Positions 52,709-57,037 of a stretch of 64,000 bases of DNA are shown here, in pieces; within the stretch, counting starts at the first letter, position 1; each line of letters starts with the position of its first letter. The stretch comes from Lachnospiraceae bacterium (GTDB taxonomy: Bacteria > Bacillota > Clostridia > Lachnospirales > Lachnospiraceae), in assembly GCA_015057325.1 (NCBI GenBank), contig SVEQ01000008.1, forward strand, positions 65,461 through 129,460, written 5' to 3'. The notes below the pieces were generated by a model. It worked only from the letters and a program-made list of their open reading frames with translations. It was not told where the DNA came from and ran no database searches. A program made the translations under genes and the position numbers.

Positions 52709-54130
52709 TCATTTTCTTACAACCGTAAGGTCGGCACGTCTTTTTAAGAAAGATACTTCGCTATCTTCTCTTGGAGTATATAGCAGAAATTGTCTCTTCC
52801 TGTCAAACACAACGGATATCTTCTTAGTGTAAAGACCTGATGAAAACTCGTCTATGAAAATGCTCGCTCTGCATTTTGCAAGTATCTCATACGTCTGCAT
52901 TAGCCCTATGCCGCTTCCGCCATCATCGCCATGCGTGGTTGTCTGCTCAATTCCATAGTTGATAAGCACTTCCTTATCAAACGGTATTCCTGAATCAAAT
53001 ATATGAATCGCCGGCGCTTTCTTAATCATGCTCATATCCAGCAATACATCTCTTGCATTGTTATACTTCGTCGCAATAATTGCATTGTCCAGCAAATCAG
53101 CCAGCAGGGTACAAAATGATTCTTCATCGATACACTTATCAAGCAACTCTTTGATATCAATACCTACCGTAACCTTTAATGTTATTCCTTCATTTGCTGC
53201 CTTCTCGTTCATATAAGTTATTAAAGTATCTACCCTGGCAACACCGGTGTTAACGCTAGGTTTGTCAGCATTTACAGCCGTAGCAACCAAGCCCTTTCTG
53301 TCTTTTGACATCTTCCTAAGTTCCTCTAGCAATTCGCTTCCTACTGACATTTCTCCGGACTCATCCATAATAAATCTTTCAACCGCCATCTCCATTGCCG
53401 GAACGAGCTTGTTATCCCTATGTACAATCTTGCCCAAGCGCTCCACATCCGCTTCAAGCTTCTTTATATACTCGTCCTTCTGTAACAGCTCCTCATTAAG
53501 TGATGCGATATTGCGGTTACCAAGTCTTTCCAGGTAAGAACGGGTAATAGATGTGCGCCACCACGCAAAAATAAGAGTTGAGAGGATTGCAAGCGCAAAA
53601 TAAACGATTAAAAGAATGTAATTATATGTTGCAAGATTGATAAATATTGCAGTTATCACTACAAACACGCTTAATGCTACCATTGGCATCGTATAGTATC
53701 CATTTTTAAGAAATGGCATCCCCTTTTTAAATCGGACAATATGAAACAAAATCCATATAGCCAAGAGTTGTAAGATTGCACACATAAATTGTCCATATTT
53801 TTCTCCAAAATCAAGCGGCATAGTAAGACTAATTATTACTGCTGAAACAATAAAGGCAATATAACTTAACGCGAAACAAATAATAGTCTTAAAAACTCTA
53901 TTCGATTCTGATTTATTAAACGACATCAAATATACCATTCCTCCGCCCAAAACAAAAGGCATCGTTAAATTTATCGCATATTCCTCTAATATTAAAGATA
54001 CAAGACTTATCAAAATAGCGAATAAAATATGCAATAATTTTTGTGTTTTATTTATCCGTATATTACACAATTTGAAATACGAAATCATATAGCATGTTGT
54101 TATTCCAAAGTTCTTTATAAATATGTTCAT
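52709..54130 (-). CDS. AgrC-like membrane sensor kinase (GHKL ATPase)
   Basis: 473 residues. Six or seven membrane segments (about 32-190), a coiled coil (about 205-232), a probable phospho-acceptor His237 in LGKIVHRDNKLVP, and a GHKL ATPase domain with CTLLADLLDNAIIA (N box, about 341-354), FDSGIPF and GGSGIGLMQTYEI (G box). AgrC-type kinases bind small secreted peptides through their membrane part. No agrB or agrD is nearby. A 19-codon gene and a response regulator with a Spo0A-type output lie just upstream. RBS AAAGGTAG is moderate. Confidence 0.88.
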   Translation of the reverse strand: MNIFIKNFGITTCYMISYFKLCNIRINKTQKLLHILFAILISLVSLILEEYAINLTMPFVLGGGMVYLMSFNKSESNRVFKTIICFALSYIAFIVSAVIISLTMPLDFGEKYGQFMCAILQLLAIWILFHIVRFKKGMPFLKNGYYTMPMVALSVFVVITAIFINLATYNYILLIVYFALAILSTLIFAWWRTSITRSYLERLGNRNIASLNEELLQKDEYIKKLEADVERLGKIVHRDNKLVPAMEMAVERFIMDESGEMSVGSELLEELRKMSKDRKGLVATAVNADKPSVNTGVARVDTLITYMNEKAANEGITLKVTVGIDIKELLDKCIDEESFCTLLADLLDNAIIATKYNNARDVLLDMSMIKKAPAIHIFDSGIPFDKEVLINYGIEQTTTHGDDGGSGIGLMQTYEILAKCRASIFIDEFSSGLYTKKISVVFDRKRQFLLYTPREDSEVSFLKRRADLTVVRK

Positions 54131-54245
54131 TTTTCTACCTTTTCTCAGTGTTTAAATAATATAAATCAATCTCTTATTCAAATATTTTTTCCATACGCTT
54201 TTCCCTATTCTGTACATAGATAACCGAACGAAAGGAGTGAATCTT

Positions 54246-54305
54246 ATGTCTTACTGGGAAAAAGTATGGAAACTACTTAGAGATTTATCAACAGGCCGTC
54301 ACTAA
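54246..54305 (+). CDS. Candidate 19-residue amphipathic peptide gene
   Basis: The peptide MSYWEKVWKLLRDLSTGRH begins 8 bases after AAAGGAGTG, one of the best ribosome binding sites in the window, and its stop is followed after 8 bp by a strong hairpin terminator. As a helix, Tyr3, Trp4, Val7, Trp8, Leu10, Leu11 and Leu14 would lie on one face, with Lys, Arg, Glu and Asp opposite. It has no cysteine and no signal peptide, so it is not AgrD-like. It lies between an AgrC-like kinase and its probable response regulator, on the opposite strand. A signal, a toxin-like or membrane-active peptide, or a leader peptide are all possible. Confidence 0.6.
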   Translation: MSYWEKVWKLLRDLSTGRH

Positions 54306-54313
54306 TCACAATC

Positions 54314-54339
54314 AACCCCGAACAAAATTGTTCGGGGTT
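54314..54339. terminator. Strong hairpin between peptide gene and response regulator gene
   Basis: AACCCCGAACAA / TTGTTCGGGGTT, a perfect 12-bp inverted repeat with a 2-base centre. It serves the plus-strand peptide gene and the convergent minus-strand regulator gene. The T tracts are short. Confidence 0.75.
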
Positions 54340-54345
54340 ATTCAT

Positions 54346-55125
54346 TTACTCCTGGACTTTCTTTACGTAATAGTATATGAACTCCATTAGCGTCGGAACA
54401 CCCTTTTCAGAACTTATACGCGCCGTATAATGCTCCAACAACTCGTCTATATCGCTCGTCCTCCACGCCTTATTGATAGCGGTCTGCATTGCTCTCTCGA
54501 CACTTGAATTCGTCTTGTGATACTTTTCACCCAATATGTTAAGCATATTCTCTTTCTCGCCATTTATTACAAGTAAGATTGCATCTGCAAGATAATTGTA
54601 TCCAAGGAACTTTGGGTTAATTCCCACATAGTCTAGTTCTCTTATTATCTTATTCTTAAGTCTCTTTTCGCGATTCTCTTCCGTATCCTTTATAAATGAT
54701 TCCCGATCCTTACTACTGCTCTTACGGACAATAGAATCCTTAACGGTCACCAGAAACTCAAGCGCTTCCTTTTCAGAGTAATCCTTCTTTTGCTTACTCA
54801 TTATAAAATCCGCACCTGCTTTTCTTATAAAATCATGAATGATTGCACTTGGGTTATTAGTAGTAATCAAAACAAACGGTTTATAGTTAATATCAAGTTC
54901 TTTTAACCCGTCCAAGAACTCTATTCCGCTTCCTTTTCCGTCATTTAATTCCAAATCGAGAATAACTACATCCGGCAAATACTCTTCAACAAGTTTAAGA
55001 CCCTTTACAGAATCATTTGTACATTCCAAAACGTTCACTGTCTCCAATTCTTGGGCACAATTAGCAAAGCAATTGCATGCGACATCGTCATCCTCAATTA
55101 CTATAACTCGTAATTCTTTCTCCAT
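54346..55125 (-). CDS. Response regulator with Spo0A-type DNA-binding domain
   Basis: 259 residues. The receiver has acidic residues 11-14 (EDDD), phospho-Asp57 (VILDLEL), Thr88 (ITTNN) and Lys111. The C-terminal domain (about 155-258) follows Spo0A: GYNYLADAILLVING, then the recognition-helix block SSVERAMQTAINKAW, which lines up with the SRVERAIRHAIEVAW block of Spo0A, then PTLMEFIYYYVKKV. The receiver is far from that of Spo0A and lacks its KPFD block, so this is a relative, not the sporulation master regulator. Start at the ATG after AAAGGAG. It is the probable partner of the AgrC-like kinase. Confidence 0.85.
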   Translation of the reverse strand: MEKELRVIVIEDDDVACNCFANCAQELETVNVLECTNDSVKGLKLVEEYLPDVVILDLELNDGKGSGIEFLDGLKELDINYKPFVLITTNNPSAIIHDFIRKAGADFIMSKQKKDYSEKEALEFLVTVKDSIVRKSSSKDRESFIKDTEENREKRLKNKIIRELDYVGINPKFLGYNYLADAILLVINGEKENMLNILGEKYHKTNSSVERAMQTAINKAWRTSDIDELLEHYTARISSEKGVPTLMEFIYYYVKKVQE

Positions 55126-55158
55126 ATTTGATTCTCCTTTGTACATCATTTTCTCTCA

Positions 55159-55205
55159 TCCAACATTTTCCAACATAAAACAACACAAAATAATCTTTTC
55201 CAACA
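55159..55205 (-). promoter_or_regulatory. Helically phased TGTTGGA repeats upstream of the regulator gene
   Basis: Plus-strand TCCAACA occurs at 55159-55165, 55169-55175 and 55199-55205, with a degenerate AACAACA at 55179-55185. Starts are 10, 10 and 20 bp apart. On the coding strand each reads TGTTGGA(AAA), 5 of 7 matches to the known Spo0A box TGTCGAA, and tandem 0A boxes bound by Spo0A dimers also repeat at 10 bp. The repeats lie 35-80 bp upstream of the regulator start, over a possible TTGGAA -35. Confidence 0.6.
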
Positions 55206-55262
55206 CCTCCGTCCAATTTTTCTGCCTGTTTTTTTATGTTAGACTAAAAATGATCTGTTGAA

Positions 55263-55395
55263 TTCTCAAAGATCCAGTCAATCTTAAGAGAAACTTGCCT
55301 ACCACTGACCGTATTTATACGTTGGCAAGTAAACAGTCAACCTTCAAAGAGAGGGTGTATATCTATTACGCACGTATACATCCCTCTCATTTTTT
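55263..55395 (+). other. Structured non-coding stretch ending in a terminator-like hairpin
   Basis: Three successive inverted repeats: TCTC/AGAT with ATCT/GAGA (55263-55290), ACTTGCC / GGCAAGT (55293-55330) with an inner CGTA/TACG, and GAGAGGGTGTATA / TATACA-CCCTCTC (55349-55388), followed on the plus strand by ATTTTTTATTT. No coding frame is seen. It may be the 3' end of a small plus-strand RNA or a terminator for the Memo/AMMECR1 gene read from the other side. Confidence 0.4.
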
Positions 55396-56815
55396 ATTTA
55401 TGTCTCACTACTTCGAATCTCGAGAGTTTAACTTCTTCATTTTCACCGATACCCGCCTTTTTCTTGGCAATAGATATCTGCTCCTTCACCGTATCGATTG
55501 TTTCCAACCTTGGCAAAAGTAGTCCACGCTTGAAACCTTTTGTAACGATGACACCGTATCTGTCAACGTCAAGTTCTGCTTCGGACTTAATATCTTCTAT
55601 TTCTCCAAGCACATCTACGCTGTACTCTAATTCATCAAGCTCCCTGACAGTTACAGGATCAAAACGCGGGTCACGCGTTGCTGCGGCAATCGCATTTTCC
55701 ACAATCTCCTCCGCAAGCCTGTCCTTTGTCGGCATTATCGTTCCAATGCAGCCTCTTAACCTGCCGTTTTTGTGCAGCGACACAAATGCTCCGGCTTTTA
55801 CATTTTTCATTTGACTTATCAAATCTTCTTCGGATTTATCTGCAAGGATTTCCAATTCTTCCTTATAATCAACAACCCTGCCCTCTCTTATATATGTTTC
55901 CAACGTCTTTCTGGCAAGGCGTACAATTACGTCTTCATTTTCTTTTTGTTTCGCTCGTCTTTCATTCTCTTTTCTTATTCTTAAAGAAAGAAAATGTCGC
56001 GCCTCTATATCTTCCTCTTCCGGCTTAAAGGTTACCACTCCGTATCCTACGCCAAATGGTCCCTCATACGATAAGCGTTTCGATGTGACATTTACACCGT
56101 CAAATGCTCCTCCCATAACGATAAATGCCCTATGCCCGCACACTGCTACCTTCTCAAGTCTAAGTTCATTAAACTCCATAAGCTTACCAAACTCAGCTTT
56201 TTCAAGCGTCTCCATAACCTCTTTATCATAAGGTCCCGCATCCGGGCTAAACCCATATGGGCCATCATGTGTCAACTTGTGTGACAAATCACCGCTTGCG
56301 ATACACACAACCCTTCGATTAAGTTCCTTTGCCGCACGCTTAATCATCATTCCCAAACGATAATGCTCTTCCGGTTCTAGTCCTGATATACCGATCCTTA
56401 CCATGTTAAAATCCGTATATCTCTTGGTGATAAAGTAAAGCGGTATCAATGTACCATGGTCAAGTGTCGGGTCTTTCTGACCGCCAACTCCCGCATCGAC
56501 CTCATTTTCCGCACACAAAACACATAGCTTTTTGACAAATGCGGTATCGTACTCGGCACTAATTCCAACTTCAGGTGCGCCAAACTGTGCAAACGAACCG
56601 ACTGCTCCTTCTCCCGGAGAAATGTGAAAATAATCGGAATACATTACGGTGTGTGGTGTAATTACAACTATTGTTTCCGGCTTTAAATCAGCCACCATTT
56701 CCGAAACTTTTTCATATGCTTTTATTGTATCTGCAATTCCCTTTTCTTTGCCTCTTCCTACCTCGGGAATAATAAGCGGTGGGTGAGGAACCGCAAACGC
56801 TCCAACTATCGCCAT
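55394..56815 (-). CDS. AmmeMemoRadiSam-type fusion: Memo-like dioxygenase-fold and AMMECR1 domains
   Basis: 473 residues. The N-terminal half (1-275) is a class III extradiol-dioxygenase/Memo fold: GAFAVPHPPLIIPEVGRG, TPHTVMYSDYFHI, LDHGTLIPLYF, ASGDLSHKL. The C-terminal half (about 295-473) is AMMECR1: GAFVSLHKNGRLRGCIGTIMPT, AAATRDPRFDPV, and GLLLPRLETIDT. In many prokaryotes these two domains go with a radical SAM enzyme, and a joint modification pathway is suspected; no radical SAM gene is in this window. Start at the ATG after GGAGGTG. Confidence 0.9.
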   Translation of the reverse strand: MAIVGAFAVPHPPLIIPEVGRGKEKGIADTIKAYEKVSEMVADLKPETIVVITPHTVMYSDYFHISPGEGAVGSFAQFGAPEVGISAEYDTAFVKKLCVLCAENEVDAGVGGQKDPTLDHGTLIPLYFITKRYTDFNMVRIGISGLEPEEHYRLGMMIKRAAKELNRRVVCIASGDLSHKLTHDGPYGFSPDAGPYDKEVMETLEKAEFGKLMEFNELRLEKVAVCGHRAFIVMGGAFDGVNVTSKRLSYEGPFGVGYGVVTFKPEEEDIEARHFLSLRIRKENERRAKQKENEDVIVRLARKTLETYIREGRVVDYKEELEILADKSEEDLISQMKNVKAGAFVSLHKNGRLRGCIGTIMPTKDRLAEEIVENAIAAATRDPRFDPVTVRELDELEYSVDVLGEIEDIKSEAELDVDRYGVIVTKGFKRGLLLPRLETIDTVKEQISIAKKKAGIGENEEVKLSRFEVVRHK

Positions 56816-56989
56816 AATATACACCTCCATATAACTATTTTCTTCGTCAATATTTGTCCAGTCAAGTAATAAACTATCAAATATATTCTCATTTCGAAAA
56901 ATGTTAACATACAGTTAACATTTTTGCAGTCCATTACTCACTGATGATATATATTATACCTCATTTGAACAATCCCTATAAAACGCAAA

Positions 56990-57037
56990 CTCCGATGCAC
57001 ACATGCTCTGTTTTCACAAAACATATATGCACCGGAG
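56990..57037 (-). terminator. Terminator-like hairpin after the aldolase-fold gene
   Basis: ACTCCG-TGCA and TGCA-CGGAGT arms form an imperfect stem with a long loop, 34 bp beyond the aldolase-fold gene. On the minus strand it is followed by TTTGCGTTTTA. The rest of 56816-57070 is A+T-rich spacer in which I see no gene. Confidence 0.5.

Follow-up and report, generated by a model that had tools for sequence, protein, structure and literature searches.

The sites best known to control a response regulator of the kind described here are the 0A boxes of Spo0A, the master regulator of sporulation. In Bacillus subtilis, the literature pairs the recognition helix ASRVERAIRHAI of Spo0A with the box TGTCGAA, and the protein contacts G2, C4 and G5 of the box, C4 directly (PMC3485338). 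The spo0A gene is autoregulated through its own 0A boxes, one of which lies over a -10 element, and the effect is reported as mostly repressive (PMC12090719). An array of short repeats precedes the gene for a Spo0A-like regulator in the 64,000-nucleotide stretch of Lachnospiraceae DNA analyzed here (the window). It resembles 0A boxes, the autoregulatory boxes of spo0A among them, in several respects: it is made up of direct 7-bp words set head-to-tail at a spacing of about one helix turn; it stands in front of the gene for a Spo0A_C protein; its boxes may overlap a -10 element, as at spo0A (PMC12090719); and its core, TGTTGGA, retains G2 and G5. It differs from them in the remainder of that core (C4 is replaced by T and A6 by G, and distant relatives have TATGG), in the greater length of the arrays (3 to about 7 slots), and in the strict arrays having turned up nowhere but at the regulator's own promoter.

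Read directly on the minus strand, TGTTGGA occupies positions 55159..55165 (box 1, the gene-proximal one), 55169..55175 (box 2) and 55199..55205 (box 5), with a degenerate copy, TGTTGTT, at 55179..55185 (box 3; the nearest ortholog, L005, also has TTGT here). All four lie on one 10-bp grid, as a preliminary description of the locus had reported. The remaining slot of the grid (slot 4, 55189..55195, minus strand) holds no recognizable box in the window, and ATTGG at the same place in L005, whose regulator is 71% identical. The array lies 34-80 bp upstream of the regulator gene (54346-55125, minus strand); the minus-strand sequence of the region is GGTGTTGGAAAAGATTATTTTGTGTTGTTTTATGTTGGAAAATGTTGGATGAGAGAAAATGATGTACAAAGGAGAATCAAATATG, in which the terminal ATG (55125) is the regulator start. 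The preliminary description had also drawn attention to a TGTTGAA on the plus strand at 55256-55262. The word does exist, but it is probably irrelevant: it is off the 10-bp grid, its orientation is opposite to that of the boxes and it has no counterpart at the matching place in L005, and it has been dropped as a member of the array.

As a lone word, TGTTGGA is unremarkable, with 14 copies in the window against 10.4 expected. Four TGTTG words on a 10-bp grid occur once in the 64 kb, both strands included, and at none of the other spacings from 6 to 21 bp; none of 300 second-order Markov copies of the window, and none of 20000 local shuffles, produced such a grid. A search of the bacterium's own genome (3.05 Mb) for pairs at 10-bp spacing, which the preliminary description had proposed, yields six instances of GTTGG-N5-GTTGG, five of them within long ORFs; the sole non-coding instance is this array. 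The second TGTTGG-N4-TGTTGG of the genome, on contig C17, was set aside as a regulatory site because it falls within a pseudouridine synthase-like ORF. Downstream of the last box, neither the window nor its nearest relatives have a good TATAAT, and a consensus promoter scan of the window returns matches no more numerous than in shuffles. The segment between an AMMECR1/MEMO-like gene and the regulator gene (55280-55390, minus strand) contains several hairpin-like stretches (CTTGCCAACGTATAAATACGGTCAGTGGTAGGCAAG; repeated GRTTGACTG), which are found in L005 too and have no Rfam match.

The regulator, the presumed binder of the boxes, is a protein of 259 aa that shares the receiver and Spo0A_C architecture of Spo0A (Pfam PF00072 and PF08769, the latter at 73.5 bits). 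Its relatives in the PDB are 1LQ1 and 1FC3, in both cases via the C-terminal domain, which aligns with 1LQ1 (phmmer, 2.3e-7). It is nevertheless distinct from Spo0A: it scores 95.6 bits against the Spo0A equivalog TIGR02875, under the cut-off of 200, and its family lies outside the single clade formed by canonical Spo0A (100/100) in a tree whose bootstrap is not fully settled. The recognition helix (SSVERAMQTAINKAW) reads SSVERAMQTAI in place of the canonical VERAIRHAI, so that R217 is replaced by Q (residues are numbered as in B. subtilis Spo0A); the C-terminus is MEFIYYYV, and the gene adjoins a kinase gene of its own. The regulator also coexists with true Spo0A, which the same genome encodes as two canonical copies in tandem (G000, C19:30540-31680; L001 and L002), both keeping VERAIRHAI and one having a divergent receiver domain. 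Most genus genomes likewise have such a tandem pair. Elsewhere (G040, C6:3372-4349), an open frame of 398 aa bears three consecutive Spo0A_C domains.

With the window's genome counted in, the regulator has an ortholog in 17 of the 26 genomes of the genus; the remaining genomes have Spo0A-level matches only. A check for loss of the repeats in close relatives with the gene found them retained: an aligned array of TTGG boxes in 10-bp phase stands upstream of the regulator in 16 of the 17 genus orthologs (protein identity 42-71%; the genus PWM was trained on the same set that it scored), in upstream sequence that is hardly alignable outside the boxes. The one clear exception, L020, scores no array and has neither a kinase nor a micropeptide gene (see below) adjoining its regulator. 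In L005, all five slots of the grid are filled, and many genus orthologs have boxes that lead into a TATAAT-like -10 (e.g., L009, TTATTGTTGGAATTTGTTGGAAAATGTTGTATAAT). A 30-bp tied-repeat EM model of the genus sequences gives a log-ratio of 213 at period 10, against 63, 79, 105 and 96 at periods 8, 9, 11 and 12, with a core of [T/C]GTTGG and T/A-rich linkers; for distant relatives, the corresponding model gives 788 at period 10 and no more than 351 at periods 8, 9, 11 and 12. The earlier characterization of the repeats as tandem 0A-like boxes is supported by this periodicity.

A wider family search of 299 genomes added about 15 more clear orthologs. Among family orthologs with an (E/D/T)R..Q helix, the PWM calls a TGTTGG-type array in six of ten, and L162, in which the array is interrupted by a contig end, has one by eye (6-7/10); L161 has a longer phased TTGG/TTGA run that terminates near a TATAAT. 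The four same-helix members that lack an array score are L162, L166 (the start of which is doubtful), and L163 and L168, both of which are real absences. Family regulators with other helices have the array in 0 of 6 cases, and canonical spo0A promoters scanned for a TGTTGG-type array gave one marginal call in 12. The distant set comprises 61 regulators from Clostridia genomes, at 32-39% identity. Phased arrays are found in 61/61 of these by a PWM that was, again, trained on the set that it scored; the core is TATGG[T/A]ATTT, and the last box is fused to a TATATT-like -10. A model-free self-match of the distant loci yields z-scores of 15.5 at lag 10 and 23.5 at lag 20, which overstate independence because these loci are mutually related. 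Most of the distant loci inspected (L086-L113) also have a small, divergent XRE-type HTH gene, which begins about 100-250 bp away on the upstream side of the regulator and has the box-bearing promoter region in common with it.

Strict forms of the array lead back to the regulator promoter only. The pattern TTGG-N5-GTTGG-N5-GTTG has four matches in the 26 genus genomes, none of them farther than about 230 bp from a regulator gene; a strict 31-mer has five matches in 20 distant genomes, all five of which are the regulator promoter by comparison of coordinates with contig ranges. Reversed-pattern controls have no matches. Two looser search tools were discarded: the promoter pattern TTGG-N5-GTTRNATAAT is too weak and matches mostly unrelated sequence, and the matches of a 22-mer consensus with 3 mismatches are likewise mixed.

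The letters of the box change together with the helix of the regulator. In the genus, the helix SSVERAMQNAI is paired with TGTTGG: G2 and G5 are kept, C4 has become T and R217 has become Q. In the distant relatives, NTITNGIQNAI (TITNGIQNAI) is paired with TATGG: G2 is lost as well, and E213-R214 has become T-N. Both regulator groups have T in place of C4 and Q in place of R217, and G2 is lost only alongside E213-R214. That the box had drifted with the recognition helix was part of the original proposal, and three helix types do match three box types; this co-variation, which comprises few independent changes, is the pattern expected were the regulator itself the reader of the boxes. Natural regulator-operator sets in which helix and box differ together (TGTCGAA, TGTTGG, TATGG) also allow direct tests of how a paralog of the Spo0A type came to be insulated from the sporulation master regulator with which it shares a cell.

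An array that is kept with its gene, that is near-exclusive to the promoter of that gene and whose letters vary with the helix of the gene product is very probably an operator through which the regulator acts on its own gene, built of diverged 0A boxes and used for autoregulation; the comparison of sequences supports the assignment first made from the window by itself. Several regulator monomers, one to each 10-bp box, would line up head-to-tail along a single face of the DNA, presumably after activation through phosphorylation by the neighboring membrane kinase, and their binding to the TGTTGG-core boxes would set the transcription of the regulator's own gene. The sign of this control is less clear-cut. 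Boxes of the 0A type can activate as well; the geometry mildly favors negative over positive autoregulation, because the space from -35 to -10 is taken up by boxes in many orthologs, the last of them touching the -10.

Other owners of the boxes have to be weighed against the regulator. The nearest at hand are the two canonical Spo0A proteins encoded on contig C19: if one of them bound the array, the regulator gene would simply be a Spo0A target. 0A boxes can be degenerate, and distant relatives do have TGNCGAA boxes in front of the micropeptide gene. However, 15 of the 17 genus orthologs, among them that of the window (where the core is TGTTGGA), lack TGNCGAA in both orientations over the 300 bp upstream of the gene; moreover, both Spo0A proteins retain the canonical helix, and the letters of the box track the helix of the regulator rather than theirs, which makes ownership by Spo0A very unlikely. 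Direct repeats of about 10 bp are known with other bacterial regulators too, so that the array might be the operator of another protein, such as one of the LytTR or XRE type, and a divergent XRE-type gene is indeed found in the distant loci. That gene has no counterpart next to the regulator in the window, whereas the Spo0A-like regulator is the constant companion of the array in all clades and the type of box follows its helix; we regard this alternative as less likely still.

Least likely of all is that the repeats function at the RNA level, in a leader that is read post-transcriptionally, or are nothing other than T-rich low-complexity sequence. The boxes of the window do lie near the ribosome-binding site, with no evident -10 downstream. 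In many genus orthologs and in most distant ones, however, the boxes are untranscribed, because a TATAAT-like -10 adjoins them or lies farther downstream; the period of 10 is specific; and a structured RNA leader was rejected as the identity of the repeats, since Rfam has no match in 54000-57000, the array region included.

The regulator, with the array as its probable operator, forms part of a compact module. Convergent with the regulator gene is an unannotated leaderless micropeptide gene of 19 codons (MSYWEKVWKLLRDLSTGRH; 54246..54305, plus strand) with a good ribosome-binding site, and a bidirectional terminator-like hairpin (54313..54340) is common to the two genes. Divergent from the micropeptide gene lies that of a membrane histidine kinase (52709..54130, minus strand), the presumed partner of the regulator, which weakly matches the GHKL type (HATPase_c at 19.8 bits and HATPase_c_5 at 16.2 bits, both under cut-off). 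The kinase adjoins the regulator in 13 genus loci, and a micropeptide counterpart is found in 13/13 of these (e.g., MLEKWWEVVWHLFTGR, MWDKFWRSIYSIMTGRH). In most distant loci, the regulator is followed by a long ORF similar in size to the kinase; of 56 loci, 45 have a Trp-rich ORF of 13-18 aa on the regulator's strand (e.g., MSWEDFIYWLSRWMG, MDWYDLFCKWLSHWLGG), where shuffles give 1.1 and the opposite strand gives 0. Taken across Clostridia, the micropeptides (window 54246-54305, plus strand; L054-L070; L084-L144) are 13-19 aa long and vary in sequence around recurring Trp positions.

Like systems of the AgrC/AgrA and ComD/ComE type, the module places side by side a membrane kinase (here one that matches GHKL weakly), a response regulator and a gene for a tiny peptide. 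It differs from these in its output domain, which is Spo0A_C and not LytTR, and in its peptide, a leaderless Trp-rich ORF of 13-19 aa with no adjoining processing gene in the loci examined. No description of the regulator-kinase-micropeptide combination was found in the open-access literature, a scope that makes this weak evidence of absence; the combination looks like an apparently undescribed peptide-signaling system. The module brings to light a peptide gene that annotation is likely to miss because of its shortness, in a setting (gut and rumen Clostridia) where known peptide signals are few. At one distant locus (L105, 5963-6583 and beyond), the gene after that of the regulator looks AgrB-like by eye, and farther on comes a distinct pair of genes for a kinase and a response regulator; this locus yielded no Trp-rich micropeptide.

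Canonical 0A boxes precede the micropeptide gene in the distant loci: 28 TTCGNCA in 19 of 46 loci, against 0.9 expected and 0 in the reverse orientation. Between the regulator stop and the micropeptide start (L084-L144), TGNCGAA often occurs twice at 10 bp, in one orientation only, together with inverted TATGG-type boxes. The latter account for 37 ACCAT against 8.4 expected, part of which belong to a terminator-like hairpin, ACCAT...ATGGTATTTTT, that is located after these boxes and before the micropeptide. A canonical-grade Spo0A_C match is present in 14 of the 16 genomes with such boxes that were tested. The 0A and inverted boxes, taken with these matches, suggest that the peptide-signaling module of the distant relatives is tied to sporulation control. 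The kinase/micropeptide promoter of the genus gives weak, degenerate and strand-biased box-pair signals only, which are missing from the window and were rejected as a further operator. Canonical 0A boxes were not seen at the micropeptide promoter in the window's genus either.

It is possible, at somewhat short of an even chance, that the array serves as a feedback switch in an as yet undescribed form of cell-cell signaling in gut Clostridia, in which a membrane kinase would sense the variable leaderless Trp-rich micropeptide and phosphorylate a Spo0A-derived regulator with a drifted box of its own. If this is true, the inverted TATGG-type and canonical 0A boxes at the distant micropeptide promoter would couple the signal to sporulation control. 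An upstream TCCTTY stretch (e.g., TCCTTCCTGATGTAAGACAGGAAGGAGG) mirrors the micropeptide's ribosome-binding site at many genus loci, and the two may form an occluding hairpin.
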